Part shown: positions 16,320-24,631 of the stretch, one piece after another
Layout of the letters: every line of letters starts with the position of its first letter
Numbering within the stretch: the first letter of the stretch is position 1
Source: Coriobacteriia bacterium
GTDB taxonomy: Bacteria; Actinomycetota; Coriobacteriia; Anaerosomatales; SLCP01
Reading direction: 5' to 3'
DNA: 49,820 bases
NCBI GenBank assembly: GCA_014859265.1
Contig: JACUUN010000009.1
Coordinates: 1-49,820 of the forward strand
The notes under the pieces: model-generated
Database searches by the model: none
What the model saw: only the letters and a program-made list of their open reading frames with translations
Told to the model about the DNA's origin: nothing
Made by a program: the position numbers and the translations under genes

Positions 16320-16646
16320 CTACACCCCCAGAGCCAGCTCTTTCGAGATGGCGTCGGCGCCCTTGGCGCCTACTGCCTGCGCCACGACCGAGCCGCGCTC
16401 GAACTTAGCGACGGTCGGGATGCTCATGACACCGTACTTCATCGCCACGTCACGATTCTCGTCGATATTGACCTTGACGAACTTCAGGGCGCCGTCGGCA
16501 CGGACGGCAAGTTTCTCAACTTCGGGGGCAATGGCACGGCACGGGCCGCACCACGGAGCCCAGAAATCCACAACCACAGGCACGGTCGCGTCAAGCACCT
16601 CGTTCTGGAACCGGTCGGCATTCACCTCTATGACGTTATCGGTCAT
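16320..16646 (-). CDS. trxA: Thioredoxin
   Basis: This 108-residue classical thioredoxin has active site WAPWCGPC, the conserved cis-proline segment MSIPTVAKF, and NIDENRDVAMKYGV. It reduces protein disulfides and persulfides in the cytoplasm with electrons from a thioredoxin reductase, which is not in the window, and could feed the CcdA protein encoded at 7583. ATG 16646 with AAGGGAAG upstream is preferred over ATG 16664. It is the first gene of trxA-fmdB-DUF302, transcribed from the strong promoter at 16689-16718 that carries a CsoR/CstR-type operator. Confidence 0.95.
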   Translation of the reverse strand: MTDNVIEVNADRFQNEVLDATVPVVVDFWAPWCGPCRAIAPEVEKLAVRADGALKFVKVNIDENRDVAMKYGVMSIPTVAKFERGSVVAQAVGAKGADAISKELALGV

Positions 16647-16688
16647 CAATCTTCCCTTCGCCATCTTCCGGGATCGTCTCGTCTGGCT

Positions 16689-16718
16689 ATTATACCCTTG
16701 GGGGTATATTGGGGTCAA
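16689..16718 (-). promoter_or_regulatory. Predicted trxA promoter with CsoR/CstR-type operator
   Basis: On the minus strand TTGACC (16718-16713) and a consensus TATAAT (16694-16689) are 18 bases apart, a strong housekeeping promoter. The spacer holds TATACCCTTGGGGGTATA (16691-16708), a palindrome with two mismatches at its centre and the same outer arms as the site at 15317. On the plus strand TATATT (16705-16710) could serve the chelatase-like gene at 16780, though its -35 is poor. The same repressor is expected to act here. Confidence 0.78.
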
Positions 16719-16779
16719 TGCGGCGTGTCCGCCCCTCCTCGGGTATCATCGTGTGCGTCGGGCTGTGGGAAGGATGTCG

Positions 16780-18012
16780 ATGGTTCCGCTCCTGTGGATC
16801 GGGCTGGTCGGCGGTTCGCTGGGGGCGGGCGCAGCTCTTGCGGTTCTTCTCGTCGTCAGCCGTCGCCGCGAAGGCCTCGTGATGATTGCGGGAGTCGCCT
16901 CGATGGCGGGGAGCGTCCTGTCCGGCAACCGACTGGTCACCATCTACGATCGACCCTCTCTCACGGTGATTGCCAGCCTGATAGCCGTCGGCGCAGTAGG
17001 TGGCGGCTTCGCGCTGGTCTCCTCGCTCCTCGCCTACGTTGAGCCGCGATCCCGACCGTCGACTCTTCCGCCCGCGGGCACCCCGTCCCGCATCCTCGTC
17101 CTTCTGATGGTGGATATTGAAGCCGAGGAGTACGTTCCGGCCGAGGTGACACGGGAGATAGCCGAGCTGGTCGATGCCGGCCTCCCTGAACCAACGCTCA
17201 GCGTGACGCCCTTCCACTATGCCGCCCAAAAGGCGCGCTACCGAGCGATCGGAGGGCGAAGCCCCGAGCCCGGTCAGGCACATGGCCTCGCGGAGCGCCT
17301 TGAGGCACACCTGGATCGCACTACCTTCGCTTGCCCCGTGGTGCTGCGCTGCGGTGATGGACAGTCGCTGAGCGCAGCTCTCGATGCGGCTCATGAAGCG
17401 GGGTTCTCCGCCGCCGTGGTGACCGGGGCCTACATAGCGGAAAGTTTCCACGCCGACGCGGAACTCCGTGGGGCCGAGGCGCGTAACGCTGACGCTAACG
17501 GGTTGGCCGTCACGTACACGCGATCGCTCTGGACCTCGGACGAACTCGCACGTCTCGTCGCCCGGCGGGCACTTGCCTTCCGGTCGAACCCGTCACAGAC
17601 CGGAGTGGCGCTTGTCGTCCACGGACAGCCCGGTGAACACGGGCGCATCAACCAGTCCTTCGACATCCAGGAAAACGCGTTCGCCAACCGGGTCCGACTC
17701 TTCCTCGCCGAGGAAGGCTTCACCACCGACCGCGTACGTGTGTGTGCGGCCGAGTGGCGCGACCCGGGGGTCAGCGAGACCGTGCGACACCTCGCCGCCC
17801 TCGGTTGCGAACACGTGCTGGTAGTACCTGTGTGCCATCTATTCGCCAACCTGCAGACCCTGCTAGACATCCCCGCTGCCGCACGCGACGCGAGAGTCGC
17901 CGAGGATGTGCGCGTGGTGCACGTGGCGCCATGGGGAGATGACGAGGTGTTGGCCGAGGTGTTGGCGGAGGCGATTGCGGAAGCCGCAACGGATGTCGCA
18001 GGACACGCGTGA
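16780..18012 (+). CDS. Membrane-anchored ferrochelatase/CbiX-fold protein
   Basis: This 410-residue protein has about three N-terminal helices (residues about 1-85), then a soluble two-lobed chelatase fold. The first lobe starts RILVLLMVDIEAEE. The second carries GVALVVHGQPGEHGRINQSF (the chelatase His), WRDPGVSETVRHLAALG and VLVVPVCHLFANLQTLLDIP. The layout matches ferrochelatase or sirohydrochlorin chelatase halves, but the second catalytic position (Glu in ferrochelatase, His in CbiX) is Gln. Substrate and activity are therefore uncertain. ATG 16780 has GGAAGG six bases upstream; ATG 16774 overlaps that site. It is divergent from trxA and shares the 16691 operator region. Confidence 0.7.
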   Translation: MVPLLWIGLVGGSLGAGAALAVLLVVSRRREGLVMIAGVASMAGSVLSGNRLVTIYDRPSLTVIASLIAVGAVGGGFALVSSLLAYVEPRSRPSTLPPAGTPSRILVLLMVDIEAEEYVPAEVTREIAELVDAGLPEPTLSVTPFHYAAQKARYRAIGGRSPEPGQAHGLAERLEAHLDRTTFACPVVLRCGDGQSLSAALDAAHEAGFSAAVVTGAYIAESFHADAELRGAEARNADANGLAVTYTRSLWTSDELARLVARRALAFRSNPSQTGVALVVHGQPGEHGRINQSFDIQENAFANRVRLFLAEEGFTTDRVRVCAAEWRDPGVSETVRHLAALGCEHVLVVPVCHLFANLQTLLDIPAAARDARVAEDVRVVHVAPWGDDEVLAEVLAEAIAEAATDVAGHA

Positions 18013-18021
18013 GTTGAAACG

Positions 18022-18747
18022 TTACCTGACGCGCTCGGGCTTGCAGCGCTCCCAATTCCACTCGCGCTGGCGCTGGATCCGGGAGAAGTGGAATGCATAA
18101 CGCAGCGCAATAGCGAGCCCCCCGCGGCCAGTCTCGGCCCGGGTCTCGAGTGCGTCGATGCTGGCGCGCAGATTCTCGGCGCTGGTACCGCGGAAGACCG
18201 TGTAGCCCTTACCGATCCCCTGGAGCACGTGGGCGTCGGAACCGCCGGTTGCGGCGATACCCTGGCCCCCCGTGAACACCTCGGCGGCCACGCGGTTCGC
18301 GTAGACGAGGAACGGCATTGAGTTGTAGACCTCGAGGGCATGGAACGCCAGCTCGTTGAGCGCGGCCCCGAAACCCTTCACGCCGAACGGCCCGAAGACG
18401 CCCTGGTTGGAGAAGGGATGAGGGATCATCGCGACCCCGTCCTGATCGGTGATGCAATCGATGGTCTCAGCAACGGTGAGTCCTGCAGGGATGTGCTCTT
18501 CCAGGAAGAGGCCGATGACGTGGCCCGACTTCGAGGATATCTCCTCGCCGACGACGACCTCGATGTTGAAATCGTCCGCGAGAGACTTCGCGAGCAGCGC
18601 ACCCTCGATGGTGTTGTGGTCGGTGATGGCGATGATTGAGAGATCCGTGTTGTCCTGCACGTGCCTCATAATCTCGGGAATCGTGGCCAGACCGTCACTG
18701 TGGGTACTGTGAATGTGAAGGTCGGCCTTGCTCCACGTATCGTTCAA
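18022..18747 (-). CDS. PHP-domain phosphoesterase
   Basis: This 241-residue PHP hydrolase has the metal motifs in order: DLHIHSTHSDG, ITDHNTIEGA, GEEISSKSGHVIG, MIPHPFS and GGSDAH. The family includes histidinol phosphatase-like enzymes and 3',5'-nucleoside bisphosphate phosphatases such as TrpH/YciV; the exact substrate is not known. The start is TTG 18747, behind GGAAGGGGA, because no ATG or GTG lies near the conserved N-terminus. It is separated by 158 bases from the aminotransferase and has its own predicted promoter and an inverted repeat at 18815. Confidence 0.88.
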   Translation of the reverse strand: MNDTWSKADLHIHSTHSDGLATIPEIMRHVQDNTDLSIIAITDHNTIEGALLAKSLADDFNIEVVVGEEISSKSGHVIGLFLEEHIPAGLTVAETIDCITDQDGVAMIPHPFSNQGVFGPFGVKGFGAALNELAFHALEVYNSMPFLVYANRVAAEVFTGGQGIAATGGSDAHVLQGIGKGYTVFRGTSAENLRASIDALETRAETGRGGLAIALRYAFHFSRIQRQREWNWERCKPERVR

Positions 18748-18905: not shown

Positions 18906-20084
18906 CTAGCCCCGCGCATGCTCCCGGCTCCACGCGCCGAGCCGGGACACGCCCTCGGCGAGCCGCTCGAGCGACGTCGCATAGCTAAAGCGAAGGAAGC
19001 CTTCACCGCCCGGACCGAAGTCGATGCCCGGCGCTGCCGAGACGAACGCCTCCTCGAGGATGCGGCTGGACAGCTCGAGCGAGTCGGGCCCCCACGCGCG
19101 GGCATCCGCAAAGACGTAGAACGCAGCGGTCGGCTCGCTCGCCACTGTCAGCCCGATACCGCGCAGCGCCGGCACCAGGTAGCGGCGCCGTTCATCGTAG
19201 ATCTCCCGCATCCTGGCGACCTCGCCCTGCGCCTGAGTGAGCGCGGCGGTGCCTGCTACCTGGACGAAGTGGTTCGCACAGAGAAAGAAGTTCTGTTGGA
19301 TCTTCTCGCACGGGCGCACGAACGGACGCGGGGCGATGAGGTACCCGAGGCGCCAGCCGGTCATAGCATAGACCTTCGAGAACCCGTTCAGCACGAAGGC
19401 CCGATTGGTGAACTCAAGAATCGAGCGACTGCGCCCCGAGAAGTCGAGTCCGTGGTATATCTCGTCGCTCACGATCCAGATGCCGTGCTCGTCGGCGATA
19501 GCGGCGAGCTCGGCGAGGTCCCCGGGGGGCAGCACCGTGCCGGTAGGGTTGCATGGCGAATTCACCATGATCGCGCGGGTCCGAGATGTGATGGCCGCAC
19601 GAACCTCGTCGGGACGGAAGCGGAAGCCCTCCTCGGCCCGCACGCGGACCGGCACCGAGACGCCGCCGAGGAAGTTCACGTAGTTCGGATAGGCTGGATA
19701 GCACGGGTCGGAGACGATGACCTCGTCACCAGGGTCGAGCAGGGTACCGAATACCAGGAGCATAGCGGGGGACGTCCCTTGGCTGACGACGATGTCCCCC
19801 GGGTCCACAGTGACGCCGTATGACGCCTGGTAGTGGTCCGAGATGGCGTGCCGCAGAGACGGAAGTCCGGCCGACTGTGTGTAGCCGGTGTCGCCGTGCT
19901 CCATGGCCTCCTCGGCCGCTCGGGTGATGAGCGCCGGGGTGGGTAGGTCCGGGTCACCGATCTCGAGCCGCACGACATCGTGGCCCATCGCCGCCAGCTC
20001 CTTGGCCCGCGCCACAACGTCCATGACGACGAATGGCCGGATGGCCTGGGCGCGCTTCGACACGTGCTGCGGTATCGGCTCCAT
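18906..20084 (-). CDS. Class I/II pyridoxal-phosphate aminotransferase (AspB-like)
   Basis: This 392-residue PLP aminotransferase has EIGDPDLPTP, YTQSAGLPSLRHAI, the CNPTGTV segment, SDEIYHGLDF, the cofactor lysine in NGFSKVYAMTGWRLGYL, and the C-terminal Arg in FLRFSYA. The family transfers amino groups between amino acids such as aspartate, aromatic or branched acids and 2-oxo acids. Substrate is not assigned. ATG 20084 has AAGGAG just upstream. It follows the radical SAM gene by 18 bases, suggesting a shared pathway or operon. Confidence 0.92.
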   Translation of the reverse strand: MEPIPQHVSKRAQAIRPFVVMDVVARAKELAAMGHDVVRLEIGDPDLPTPALITRAAEEAMEHGDTGYTQSAGLPSLRHAISDHYQASYGVTVDPGDIVVSQGTSPAMLLVFGTLLDPGDEVIVSDPCYPAYPNYVNFLGGVSVPVRVRAEEGFRFRPDEVRAAITSRTRAIMVNSPCNPTGTVLPPGDLAELAAIADEHGIWIVSDEIYHGLDFSGRSRSILEFTNRAFVLNGFSKVYAMTGWRLGYLIAPRPFVRPCEKIQQNFFLCANHFVQVAGTAALTQAQGEVARMREIYDERRRYLVPALRGIGLTVASEPTAAFYVFADARAWGPDSLELSSRILEEAFVSAAPGIDFGPGGEGFLRFSYATSLERLAEGVSRLGAWSREHARG

Positions 20085-20102: not shown

Positions 20103-21374
20103 CTACAGGCGCGCCCGGTAGTGGTCCATCAACGCATTGCCCATCACTTCGAGACGACGCAGATCGCCGAAGGTGATTTCCCCGGTGCTCACGACCTCGT
20201 GCGGCGGTGCAGGATCGAACGCGAGCCCGACCTCGTCAGCACGCTGCCACAGATCGGTCCCGGGCAGCACGTGCAGTGTGGACATCTGCAGGGCTCCGGG
20301 GTCGAGGTCGGCGACGAAACGCATACCCGCGAGCACGTCAGCCGCTGTATCGCCCGGCAGGCCGATGATGAGGTCGCACTCGACCGAGATGCCCGCGGCC
20401 TTCGCGGCAGAGACGCCGGCGACGAACCGCTCCCGATCGAATGAGCGGCGGCAGACCTCCAACGCGCGCTCTCCAACGCTCTGGGGCCCAGTCTCGACCG
20501 AGGCGACCCCGGCTCGCCGCAGCATTGCCGCCTCATCGGATCCTATGCGCTCGATGTCGACCTCGATGGTATGCAGACGCACACCATCTCGGGCGTATGG
20601 TTCCATGACGCCGGTCAGCCATCCTAAACGCTCCGGCGTCAGGTTGAACACGGGATCGATGAATGAGAACAACAGGATGCCTGCAGCGCTTGCGAGGTGT
20701 GCAATCTCGGCCTCGACGCGCTCCTTCGAGAAGGAGCGGATGCGACTGAAACCCTTGCCCTCGAAGCAGTAGCCGCATCGGTGCGGACAACCGCGGTAGG
20801 TCTCGATGTAGGCGCTTCCCTCGACGGACTCGAGCACTCCGGTGAGGTATGGCGAAGGTATGGAGTCGAGATCGCCGATAAGCACCCGGTCGGGGGCGGA
20901 GACAACCTCGCCGTCGCGACGGGCGGTGACGCCCTCGACTCGCCAGGGCGAGCGACCTCTGAGCAGGACGGAGAGCAACTCGGCAAAGGTCTCCTCGCCC
21001 TCTCCGCGAACAACAGCGTCAATCGCGGGCTGGGCCTTGAGCACCTGCTCGGCGATGGGCGCGACCTCGGGACCGCCGACCACGATGAATACGTCGGGCA
21101 GAATCTTCTTCAGAAGACGGCACGCGTCATAGATCGACCGGGCATTCCAGCACGTTACCGAGAAACCGACCACCTCAGGCTCGAGCGCTGCGACACGGTA
21201 CGCGACCCACCAGGGATCGACGGTGACGTCGAGGTCCAGTGTCATAAAGCCGCTCTTACCCGCGAGCCGGGAATCGGCCTGTGCGTATGCCCGTACGTAG
21301 CCGAGCGCAAGCGACCGGTAGCCGGGCGAGTTAAGCCCGACGAGCGCCACCTTCTGCGGGGGTCCGTTGCTCAC
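20103..21374 (-). CDS. B12-binding-domain radical SAM protein
   Basis: This 423-residue protein has an N-terminal Rossmann-like cobalamin-binding domain (residues about 8-150, with FIVVGGPEVAP), although no clear DxHxxG cobalt-ligand motif is seen. A radical SAM TIM barrel follows, whose [4Fe-4S] motif is RGCPHRCGYC, with FIDPVFNL, GPQSV and IIGLPGDT further on. Family members methylate or rearrange unactivated carbons or modify tetrapyrroles; the substrate is unknown. GTG 21374 overlaps the stop of the upstream gene as GTGA, so the pair is translationally coupled. It is followed closely by the aminotransferase. Confidence 0.9.
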   Translation of the reverse strand: MSNGPPQKVALVGLNSPGYRSLALGYVRAYAQADSRLAGKSGFMTLDLDVTVDPWWVAYRVAALEPEVVGFSVTCWNARSIYDACRLLKKILPDVFIVVGGPEVAPIAEQVLKAQPAIDAVVRGEGEETFAELLSVLLRGRSPWRVEGVTARRDGEVVSAPDRVLIGDLDSIPSPYLTGVLESVEGSAYIETYRGCPHRCGYCFEGKGFSRIRSFSKERVEAEIAHLASAAGILLFSFIDPVFNLTPERLGWLTGVMEPYARDGVRLHTIEVDIERIGSDEAAMLRRAGVASVETGPQSVGERALEVCRRSFDRERFVAGVSAAKAAGISVECDLIIGLPGDTAADVLAGMRFVADLDPGALQMSTLHVLPGTDLWQRADEVGLAFDPAPPHEVVSTGEITFGDLRRLEVMGNALMDHYRARL

Positions 21375-22084
21375 CCATCCACCCCACTTATCGTGATGGC
21401 GTCGAAAGCATGTAGCGCCTTGTCGCCGAGCGCGTCACGATCCATTCCTGACACCGCCACCCAGACACGGTTCACGGTACCGGTGTCGCATCCGGCGGCC
21501 ACCCAATCCCCGGAACGACGGGAATCGAGTGCGGAATCGCAGGCGAGAAGGATGCTCGACACTCCCATTTCCGCAAGGCGCATCACCGTTGCCGGCAGAT
21601 CCTGTAGGTTGTGGCGGCACACGCGTACCCGTCCGCGCACGGCCACCCTCACACCGAGTGTTTCCGCGGCGTCGAGCAGGTTACCTACGCCCGTTGCGGC
21701 CGCTTTGAACGCGCCCGGAGTCCCGGCGAGGGGGTCATGGGCCTCCGCGCACGAACCGAGGAACGTCACCTCGACGATGCGAACCCCGCCGCGCAGAAGG
21801 CTTACTGCGGCAGCGGAATCGGTGAGCGAACGTCCGGACGTCCGCAGCGCGATGCGTGAAGCCCCGGCCCGAGCTGCGTAATCGACGAGACACGGGAGAT
21901 CGGGGTGATCGAGAGGCCCGACATCCGAGAAGAACACTCCGACGCGCGGCGCGGCGCCGAGAACAGCATCGATATGACGCATGAGCGCGGCCATCGCGAG
22001 GGGCGCCGAAACCCCACCAGCAGCGCACCGGCGGCAGGAGACTTCATCTCCTCCACCGAATGGTATGTTGTGGAACACGAGCAC
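21371..22084 (-). CDS. Radical-SAM-like protein with degenerate cluster motif
   Basis: This 237-residue protein is not a clear member of a named family. Its frame follows the radical SAM order: a first strand VLVFHNI, a Cys pair in EVSCRRCAAGG where CxxxCxxC would sit, FSDVGPLDHPDL where GGEPLLHPDL is usual, then IALRTSGRSL and EVTFLGSCAEAHDPLAGTPGAF, which closely follow radical SAM strands. Only two of the three cluster cysteines remain (Asp at the first), so it may be inactive or a partner subunit. GTG 22084 is chosen because AGGGGAG lies eight bases upstream; GTG 22114 is an alternative. It is coupled to the intact radical SAM gene. Confidence 0.6.
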   Translation of the reverse strand: MLVFHNIPFGGGDEVSCRRCAAGGVSAPLAMAALMRHIDAVLGAAPRVGVFFSDVGPLDHPDLPCLVDYAARAGASRIALRTSGRSLTDSAAAVSLLRGGVRIVEVTFLGSCAEAHDPLAGTPGAFKAAATGVGNLLDAAETLGVRVAVRGRVRVCRHNLQDLPATVMRLAEMGVSSILLACDSALDSRRSGDWVAAGCDTGTVNRVWVAVSGMDRDALGDKALHAFDAITISGVDG

Positions 22085-22216
22085 CGGGCGTACTCCCCTC
22101 GTCGGGTCGCTCACAGCATAGCCGATGCAACGGCGGCAATCAGCCGCCTGCGGTTGCCGCCCCACACCCGCACGTGCGACCACCGCTGGAGCGCTCAAGA
22201 GTCTGGAACGGGGACA

Positions 22217-24631
22217 ATGCCGCAGATAGCTGACACCCAGAGACGGCGGACGAGACTCGGCATGTACGTCGCGCTCGCGCTCGCTATCACCCTCGGGCTC
22301 ATCGGCATTCGTGTCGTCTACGGCTATCTGCTCTTCCACTCGCTGGTCGAGTTCTTCGCCGTAGCCGTTGCCGTAGGCGCCTTCATGGTGACGTGGAACC
22401 TGCGCCGCTATTTCGATGCAGGTTACCTCGTCGTCCTCGGCGTGGCGTTCTTCTTCGCGGCATGCGTGGACGTGTTGCACCTCCTCGCTTACCGCGGGAT
22501 GGGCGTCTTCCCCGAGCCAGGAGCCAACCTCCCCACACAGCTCTGGCTCATCGCCCGCTACATCCAGGCGGCCGGCCTGCTCATCGCTCCGGCGTTCGCA
22601 CGCCGTCGGGTGTCTGCAGCGCCAGTCTTCTGGTCCTTCGCCGCACTCACTGTTGCCCTACTCTCGACCGTGTTCGTGTTCGACATCTTCCCGGTGGCGC
22701 TCGTCGACGGAGTGGGACTTACGCCGTTCAAGGTGTGGAGCGAGTATGCGATCAGCGGAGCGATGGCGCTTAGTCTGGTAGCAGTGTGGAGGTACCGCGA
22801 CACGTTCAACAGAGAGGTGTTGTGGCTGCTGACGGCGATGATTCTGACCGCGATCGCAGCCGAGCTCGCCTTCACCCTGTATGTTGATCCTTACGGTGCC
22901 TGGAACTTCGTCGGCCACCTTCTCAAGGTCGTCACGTTCTTCCTGCTATACCGGGCGATTGTCGAGACCGCACTCGTGCGCCCCCTCGACGTGCTCTTCC
23001 AGAACCTGCAGCGCACCGCCGAGAAGTTGAAAGAGAGCGAGGTCCGCTTCCGCTCGACGTTCGAGCAGGCCACAATCGGGATCGCACAGATCTCCCTCGA
23101 CGGCCGTTGGCTTCGCCTCAACCACAGACTCGCCGAGATCGCAGGTCACTCCCTCGAGGATCTCACGCAGATGCTTCCCGAGGACATCACGCACCCGGAC
23201 GACCGGCCTGCCGAAGTCGCGCTCATCAGGCGACTGATCGATGGGGAAATCGACGAGTACCGCCTTGAGAAGCGTTACATTGGCAAGGACGGCTCCATCG
23301 CCTGGGTCGAGGTGAGCCGCACCCTCATGCGTGGGGCAGATAGCGTCCCGATGTACTTCATCGCTACCGTCGAAGACATCGGCGAGCGCAAGGAGCGCGA
23401 GGAGAACCTGCGCCGTTCTCGCGACCTGACCAACACACTCAACTCGATCGATCTGGCGATCAACGCCATGACCGATGTCGACGAGATCACCCGCACCGCA
23501 GCCGAGGCAGGCTGCGACGCTCTCGGAGCCGAGAGTGCCGCGCTGCTGTTGCGCGACGGAAAGCGATGGCGCCTCGGCCATCTGTACCGGTTCCCACACG
23601 AGAAGATCCCGCAACACGCGCCGGGCAACCAACCAGTCCCGGTAGCTGCCGAGGACGGCTCCCCGCTGGTTGTGGACGACACCTTCACGTCCGAACGCTT
23701 GAACGCCGACACCATGCGCATTCTGGGCATACGCTCACTGCTTACGGTGCCGCTGCGCTTCCGCGGCGAGGACCTCGGGGTCATCTATCTGAACTACCAC
23801 TCGGCACCCCACCGCTTCAGCGATGCAGAGGCCGAGTTCGCCCGCAGGCTCTCCTCCTCGGTCACGCTCGCCATCGAGAACGCTCGACTCTACGCAGCGC
23901 AACGACTGATCGCAGACACCCTCCAGTCCGCGCTGCTCGCGATGCCCTCCCACCTGCATGGCCTGGAGCTCGCCCACGTGTATCGCAGCGCCACCGAGCT
24001 CGCGCGAATCGGCGGCGACTTCTACGACGTGTTCGAGGTCCTCGGCGACACAGTGGCGTTCGCGCTCGGCGACGTCTCGGGCAAGGGCATCGAGGCGGCG
24101 ACGCTCACAGCTATGGCGAAGAGCACTATCCGCGCGTACGCCTACCAGGACCCCCGCCCGGACCGGGTGCTTGGCGCGGCGAACGACGCCATCGCAACTC
24201 AAATCGGTGACACCCGCTTCATCACCGCGCTCTATGGCACAATTCACGTGCCGACAGGCCGACTGGAGCTGGCGTCCGCCGGCCATCCGCAACCCGTGCT
24301 CTGTGTCGATGGGCAATGTAGCGACGACACCATCGAGAACTTCCCTCCCCTCGGCGTGGTGCCAGGCGTTAAGTTCACGTGCTTCTCCCAATCACTCACC
24401 GAAGGCAGCCTGCTCGTGCTCTTCAGTGACGGGCTTATCGAGGCGCGCAACGACTGCGGCTTCCTCGGCGAGGACCGAGTGCGCGAGATCGTGACAGAGA
24501 ACATCGACGGGAGTCCGGCTGTGGTGGTCGACGCCCTCGTGGCCGCGGCGGAAACCCACTGCGGCGGAAGAATCGGCGATGACATCGCCCTCGTCGCGCT
24601 ACGCTACACCGGGCCCGGAGAGGGCCCCTAG
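22217..24631 (+). CDS. MASE3-PAS-GAF SpoIIE-type phosphatase
   Basis: This 804-residue protein has seven N-terminal membrane helices (about 15-255) resembling the MASE3 sensor domain, a PAS domain (about 275-395, ending MYFIATVEDIGERK), a GAF domain (about 405-550) and a SpoIIE/PP2C domain (about 580-800). The phosphatase motifs ARIGGDFYDVF, LGDVSGKG, LFSDGLIEARND and GDDIALVAL are intact. It probably dephosphorylates a STAS-type antagonist; the fused STAS/HATPase protein at 3472 is the only candidate in the window. The start ATG 22217 sits behind ACGGGGAC. The gene is divergent from the radical SAM cluster. Confidence 0.9.
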   Translation: MPQIADTQRRRTRLGMYVALALAITLGLIGIRVVYGYLLFHSLVEFFAVAVAVGAFMVTWNLRRYFDAGYLVVLGVAFFFAACVDVLHLLAYRGMGVFPEPGANLPTQLWLIARYIQAAGLLIAPAFARRRVSAAPVFWSFAALTVALLSTVFVFDIFPVALVDGVGLTPFKVWSEYAISGAMALSLVAVWRYRDTFNREVLWLLTAMILTAIAAELAFTLYVDPYGAWNFVGHLLKVVTFFLLYRAIVETALVRPLDVLFQNLQRTAEKLKESEVRFRSTFEQATIGIAQISLDGRWLRLNHRLAEIAGHSLEDLTQMLPEDITHPDDRPAEVALIRRLIDGEIDEYRLEKRYIGKDGSIAWVEVSRTLMRGADSVPMYFIATVEDIGERKEREENLRRSRDLTNTLNSIDLAINAMTDVDEITRTAAEAGCDALGAESAALLLRDGKRWRLGHLYRFPHEKIPQHAPGNQPVPVAAEDGSPLVVDDTFTSERLNADTMRILGIRSLLTVPLRFRGEDLGVIYLNYHSAPHRFSDAEAEFARRLSSSVTLAIENARLYAAQRLIADTLQSALLAMPSHLHGLELAHVYRSATELARIGGDFYDVFEVLGDTVAFALGDVSGKGIEAATLTAMAKSTIRAYAYQDPRPDRVLGAANDAIATQIGDTRFITALYGTIHVPTGRLELASAGHPQPVLCVDGQCSDDTIENFPPLGVVPGVKFTCFSQSLTEGSLLVLFSDGLIEARNDCGFLGEDRVREIVTENIDGSPAVVVDALVAAAETHCGGRIGDDIALVALRYTGPGEGP

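Follow-up and report, generated by a model that had tools for sequence, protein, structure and literature searches.

A conserved putative radical SAM pseudoenzyme strictly paired with a short cobalamin-dependent radical SAM enzyme in Anaerosomatales: a possible subunit with a remodelled putative metal site

The window, a stretch of 49,820 nucleotides, comes from a metagenome-assembled genome of 2.34 Mb that its named relatives place in the Anaerosomatales (OPB41) of the class Coriobacteriia, an order with cultured members (PMC9686372). Its central features (Table 1) are a gene for a B12-type radical SAM protein and, directly upstream on the same strand, a gene for a second protein of radical SAM fold, here called the partner. 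The original prediction, made from the DNA letters, had placed here an intact B12-type radical SAM gene that overlaps a degenerate radical-SAM-like gene as GTGA and is followed by an aminotransferase gene. This arrangement is borne out, as both reading frames are open on the minus strand, the B12 gene encodes a CxxxCxxC motif together with a B12-binding domain, the junction of the two genes (GGGTGAGC) gives the GTGA overlap exactly, and the aminotransferase reading frame, separated from the B12 gene by 18 nt, has a good ribosome-binding site. A divergent gene for a MASE3-PAS-GAF-SpoIIE signalling phosphatase (21905-24631, plus strand) adjoins the pair.

Table 1. Features of the locus, in positions of the window (AT, aminotransferase; rSAM, radical SAM)
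Feature	Position	Strand	Basis or remark
Pseudo-radical-SAM partner (PSEUDO)	21371..22084	(-)	237 aa, GTG start; ORF and translation, AF2 rSAM fold, orthologues, dN/dS
CxxC (C17-R-R-C20), remnant of CxxxCxxC	22025..22036	(-)	Both Cys in 47/47 orthologues of the order
SDVGP at the GGEP position, residues 53-57	21914..21928	(-)	Consensus of the order is (T/L)G-x-(E/D)-P
C156-R-H158, C-terminal end of predicted strand beta5	21611..21619	(-)	Both in 47/47
GTGA stop/start overlap, partner/B12 gene	21371..21374	(-)	Junction sequence; translational coupling inferred
Class-1 cobalamin-dependent radical SAM enzyme	20103..21374	(-)	423 aa; C-terminal domain of TokK/CysS absent
Intact C196-x3-C200-x2-C203 cluster motif, B12 enzyme	20766..20789	(-)	Translation
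Trp76 codon, B12 enzyme	21147..21149	(-)	Aligned to TokK Trp76
Class I aminotransferase gene (AT)	18906..20084	(-)	Syntenic neighbour, probably outside the unit
PHP-domain phosphoesterase gene	18022..18747	(-)	Start inferred; syntenic neighbour, probably outside the unit

The partner had been described as keeping only the CxxC of the radical SAM cluster motif, and it indeed reads SCRRC with D13 at the first cluster position; the first cysteine is missing from the window protein and from all 47 sequences of the order. The replacement of GGEP by SDVGP, also part of the original prediction, is real in the window protein but confined to its own lineage, since most of the order retains G-x-(E/D)-(P/A) at this position, with the glycine in 46/47 sequences. 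Outside the window's lineage the partner of most species may thus still bind SAM. The window partner scores 14.9 bits against the Pfam radical SAM model PF04055, below the gathering score of 29.5, and the NCBIfam search relates it weakly to several radical SAM/SPASM families, with TIGR04347 as the best. The AlphaFold2 (AF2) model, built on an alignment with 17 orthologues, has a pLDDT of 89.7 and a pTM of 0.88, and contains six beta-alpha units in the order of the radical SAM core; the CxxC loop is its least confident part (block means 66-75). The best solved structure in Foldseek is BlsE (E 2.9e-9), which the sequence profile of the partner retrieves as well, followed among the top structures by DesII, the tetraether synthase GDGT-MAS, SkfB, Mmp10 and MoaA, and the best matches in VIA-align are NifB, viperin, BlsE and SkfB, with Z values of 17.6-17.8. 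The matches of both searches are mainly radical SAM enzymes, and the TIM barrel implied by the original reading of this protein is therefore confidently predicted, as the partial (beta/alpha) barrel of the radical SAM core. Within the source genome, the intact genes most closely paralogous to the partner are AhbC/AhbD/NirJ-like radical SAM/SPASM genes at G000:C165:39202-39741 and G000:C75:2267-2827.

The downstream protein has the features of class 1, namely an N-terminal B12-binding Rossmann domain (PF02310, 67.6 bits) and a radical SAM core with CxxxCxxC (PF04055, 65.4 bits), both above the Pfam cut-offs. Its AF2 model (pLDDT 91.3) finds TokK, CysS, TsrM and OxsB as top folds, with TM values of 0.86 on the query and 0.59 on the target for CysS, and of 0.82 and 0.54 for TokK, and the combination of high query and low target values indicates that the B12 core is complete and that the rest of CysS and TokK is missing. 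The protein stops at residue 423, its sequence match ends near residue 390 of the 681 of TokK, and a C-terminal domain beyond the barrel, as in TokK, TsrM and OxsB, is not present. AprD4 and MgmA have also about 450 aa, so a short protein of the cobalamin radical SAM type is not necessarily an incomplete one. The score against the KedN5 family model NF033712 is 161.4 bits, below the cut-off of 700. The tryptophan listed in Table 1 corresponds to TokK Trp76, the residue below the cobalt in that radical methyl-transfer enzyme (PMC13331322).

When the B12 alignment was used to scan 84,980 species genomes, 55 orthologous loci came up, four of which (L118, L120, L131 and L134) run off the contig upstream of the B12 gene. 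In the 51 with upstream sequence the partner is found on the same strand in every case (51/51), so that the co-occurrence expected by the original prediction holds with no exception seen; the B12 gene is directly downstream of the partner in 30/30 loci of the order, and the overlap is 4 nt in most orthologues. B12 genes apparently lacking a partner in G001, G017 and G029 were rejected as exceptions, because the gene runs into the contig end there. The paired loci are almost all from Anaerosomatales, plus a few other Actinomycetota, and five pairs lie outside the order: Ca. Geothermocultor (L128), the Actinomycetota L129 and L133, the uncultured L130, and G363 (L055), with L128, L129, L133 and L130 counted within the 51. 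Neither gene of the pair is detectable in two nearly complete genomes (G022, 99%; G031, 98%), where the aminotransferase, PHP and further downstream genes stand in the usual order, which indicates that the pair was lost together and that the aminotransferase stayed. The pair is missing from G013 too. The partner and the B12 enzyme are a real two-gene unit. Remote B12-type radical SAM proteins of Fermentibacteria and Aegiribacteria (L136-L141) have no partner and served only as outgroup. A second, SPASM-tailed version of the pair is found at a different genomic place in G037, G038 and G012 (L042, L045 and L038); it adjoins MinD/Mrp-type ATPases and NifX-like genes in G037 and G038, and G012 and G038 have two partner copies each.

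Orthologues of the partner were found in most of the 61 genomes of the order and are nearly all free of internal stops. The gene evolves faster than the B12 gene (dN/dS 0.13-0.35 and 0.04-0.12, respectively), and its ratio points to purifying selection rather than to a decaying reading frame. Eight positions, C17, C20, H60, R77, G100, G132, C156 and H158, are invariant in all 47 partner sequences of the order, a set with a median identity of 36%, while the remaining four cysteines of the window partner rank 46th to 204th in conservation. In L122 the spacing of the cysteine pair is CxxxC. In the AF2 model C17 and C20 follow strand 1 and C156 and H158 come directly after strand 5, and it is on this side of the barrel that radical SAM enzymes hold their cofactors. 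This suggests that C17, C20, H60, C156 and H158 form a remodelled, putative metal site. The Cys/His set is retained where GxEP is gone (the window protein) or changed (members of the sister genus), which favours a conserved metal site without canonical SAM chemistry. The term degenerate, used in the original prediction, therefore fits the loss of the standard cluster site, but with three cysteines and two histidines invariant it is too simple. C156 and H158 are mostly missing from orthologues with an intact CxxxCxxC, although the intact outgroup partner L129 already carries the equivalent of C156. Since the contrast between intact and lost motifs is essentially one of a single clade versus its outgroup, the gain of the CxH motif would count as a single event.

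In L055, L128, L129 and L130 the partner has the CxxxCxxC intact, together with GGEP and a SPASM-like tail (CxxC...C). The L128 and L129 partners score above the gathering threshold of PF04055 (51.1 and 41.3 bits, respectively); the best NCBIfam relatives of those from L128 to L130 are HxsC and HxsC4, below cut-off. Within the order the SPASM-like tail is present in a part of the species (forms of 292-297 aa) and lost in the rest, the window included. The tree of the B12 protein separates the group with intact partners from the Anaerosomatales and requires at least three changes of motif state and at least three of tail presence. The partner of L133 has lost all cluster cysteines with the SPASM-like tail intact, and since L133 groups with the intact L128 (support 100/98), its loss of the cysteines is a separate one. 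The intact orthologues outside the order argue that the Anaerosomatales form is a derived pseudoenzyme, one that is held under purifying selection, and they strengthen the pseudoenzyme reading originally proposed. Futalosine-type menaquinone genes are located a few genes upstream of the L133 partner gene (L133:7228-7995).

Taking together the predicted fold, the strict pairing and joint loss, the intact relatives of ancestral type, the purifying selection and the invariant Cys/His set, the reading we tentatively prefer, and which may be right, is that the partner is a non-catalytic subunit of radical SAM fold, with a remodelled metal site, serving a B12 methyltransferase that has no C-terminal domain. 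The two proteins would form one functional unit. Its downstream member would be an active enzyme of the class-1 cobalamin-dependent radical SAM type, by analogy most likely a C-methyltransferase, that would transfer a methyl group as a radical in the manner of TokK and CysS and would do so without the C-terminal domain of over 200 residues found in these enzymes. The partner would descend from an active radical SAM/SPASM protein already paired with the B12 enzyme. In Anaerosomatales the first cluster cysteine would have gone, together with the SPASM tail in most species and with GGEP in the lineage of the window, changes after which canonical radical SAM chemistry should no longer be possible. 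Radical chemistry seems to have been dispensable at least twice and the presence of the partner not, which suggests that its lasting role is to bind or to complete the B12 enzyme. It would be a subunit, probably physically bound, that acts in trans in substrate binding or in closure of the active site, and the putative metal site of C17, C20, C156, H158 and possibly H60 may be structural or a redox relay. The stronger proposal, that the partner is an obligate in-trans subunit of the truncated methyltransferase and that its CxxC, together with a relocated pair of CxH ligands from the end of strand 5, makes up a metal site of a type new to the radical SAM fold, we consider doubtful; if true, a pseudoenzyme subunit of this superfamily would have rebuilt its cofactor site while its intact ancestral form lives on in sister lineages.

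The invariant residues can also be read as a SAM-cleaving [4Fe-4S] site rebuilt from C17, C20 and C156, which would make the pair two active radical enzymes. Some other proteins bind such clusters through non-canonical cysteine arrangements, exactly three cysteines of the partner are invariant, most of the order still has G-x-(E/D)-P, and the early occurrence of the C156 equivalent in L129 is in line with such a site. However, the window's lineage is without the glycine and the acid of GxEP, yet has kept C17, C20, C156 and H158, so the SAM motif can go while the metal ligands stay, and the extra invariant histidine suggests a fully ligated site with no open coordination position. An active enzyme of this non-canonical kind is in our view unlikely.

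Strict adjacency also fits two successive enzymes. The ancestral partner would then have performed a separate step on the same substrate, a step since dropped or replaced in Anaerosomatales, leaving a mere binder that forms no stable complex. The outgroup partners do look fully competent, and AlsB and AlsA are a precedent for a pathway that employs another radical SAM enzyme alongside a B12-dependent one (PMC13331322). A protein without catalysis would however be expected to disappear, whereas the partner is retained wherever the B12 gene occurs, L133 included, and this makes sequential action improbable as the explanation of the pair.

A larger unit is conceivable in which partner, B12 enzyme, aminotransferase and PHP protein make one amino-acid-derived product by C-methylation followed by transamination. 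The aminotransferase gene is directly downstream of the pair in 43/50 loci, with gaps mostly of -2 to 29 nt, and the PHP gene follows in 44/50. Both genes nevertheless persist in G022 and G031 without the pair, and the pairs of G012, G037 and G038 and of all outgroup loci are placed elsewhere and without the aminotransferase. The two neighbours are thus probably not part of the unit and were rejected as core components, the aminotransferase as third component proposed in the original prediction falls away, and we regard a four-gene operon as very unlikely. A SpoIIE-type gene is likewise located upstream of the aminotransferase gene in the pair-less G022 and G031, in opposite orientation. An open reading frame at 16348-18012 (plus strand), with a hydrophobic N-terminal part and a ferrochelatase/CbiX-like C-terminal half (PF00762, E 3.7e-13), is kept in most neighbourhoods of the order, in a source genome that has its AhbC/AhbD/NirJ-like genes elsewhere. 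A link to heme, considered on account of this neighbour and of NirJ/AhbD-like scores, found no support, as HxsC-type proteins give the best scores for the intact orthologues and the pair occurs also in unrelated contexts. No conserved neighbours hinting at the substrate were seen among the outgroup loci.

That an ordinary B12 radical SAM gene is simply preceded by a pseudogene or a spurious reading frame, for which the low identity of the orthologues and the faster evolution of the gene might be quoted, is refuted by the purifying selection, the near absence of stops, the eight invariant residues and the confident fold.

For kinases and proteases it is well established that a pseudoenzyme can regulate or complete an active relative. 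In the open-access literature we found no comparable case for radical SAM proteins, nor a paper describing such a pseudoenzyme in a pair with a B12 radical SAM enzyme. Within one phylum the partner forms a series, from an intact radical SAM/SPASM protein through a rebuilt cluster site with or without the SPASM tail to a clusterless lineage, and as all these forms adjoin the same B12 enzyme, the change from enzyme to presumed helper becomes visible and the role of a radical SAM fold without radical chemistry directly testable. Inactivity of truncated B12 radical SAM enzymes when expressed alone is a common problem, and the pair suggests that such enzymes may need an encoded neighbour for activity.

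The B12 protein is best compared with TokK and CysS of the KedN5 family (NF033712), with which it shares the cobalamin-binding Rossmann domain, the radical SAM barrel, the CxxxCxxC and, with TokK, the tryptophan under the cobalt, but it has 423 aa instead of 645-681 and, in contrast to them, is always paired with a second protein of radical SAM fold. For the intact outgroup partners the best NCBIfam matches are HxsC and HxsC4 (TIGR03977 and NF038332), radical SAM maturases of the His-Xaa-Ser system; the L128 partner reaches 107.7 bits for HxsC and 86.8 for HxsC4, short of the cut-offs of 500 and 267.9. The outgroup partners have about 290 aa, like HxsC/HxsC4, and HxsC too is a radical SAM protein working in a pair, but it works with HxsB, whereas the protein studied here is paired with a B12 radical SAM protein. 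An HxsA-like repeat peptide was not seen among the neighbouring reading frames of the outgroup loci, and a search for the HxsC4 family across the phylum gave no genome above the cut-off. The window partner itself is closest in NCBIfam to TIGR04347, a pseudo-SAM/SPASM family of haloarchaea (45 bits, E 8.7e-12), with which it shares the pseudo-SAM designation, but this score is far from the cut-off of 525 bits, the model has 390 positions and the organisms are different. The closest solved structure by both sequence profile and fold is BlsE, the cytosylglucuronate decarboxylase (7vob), an active radical SAM enzyme, unlike which the partner is without CxxxCxxC and, in the window, also without GGEP. 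Finally, OxsB and AlsB are class-1 cobalamin radical SAM enzymes which need a second protein, OxsA and AlsA respectively, and the latter also belongs to the radical SAM enzymes (PMC13331322). Neither OxsA, an HD phosphohydrolase, nor AlsA, which is described as active, is a radical SAM pseudoenzyme.
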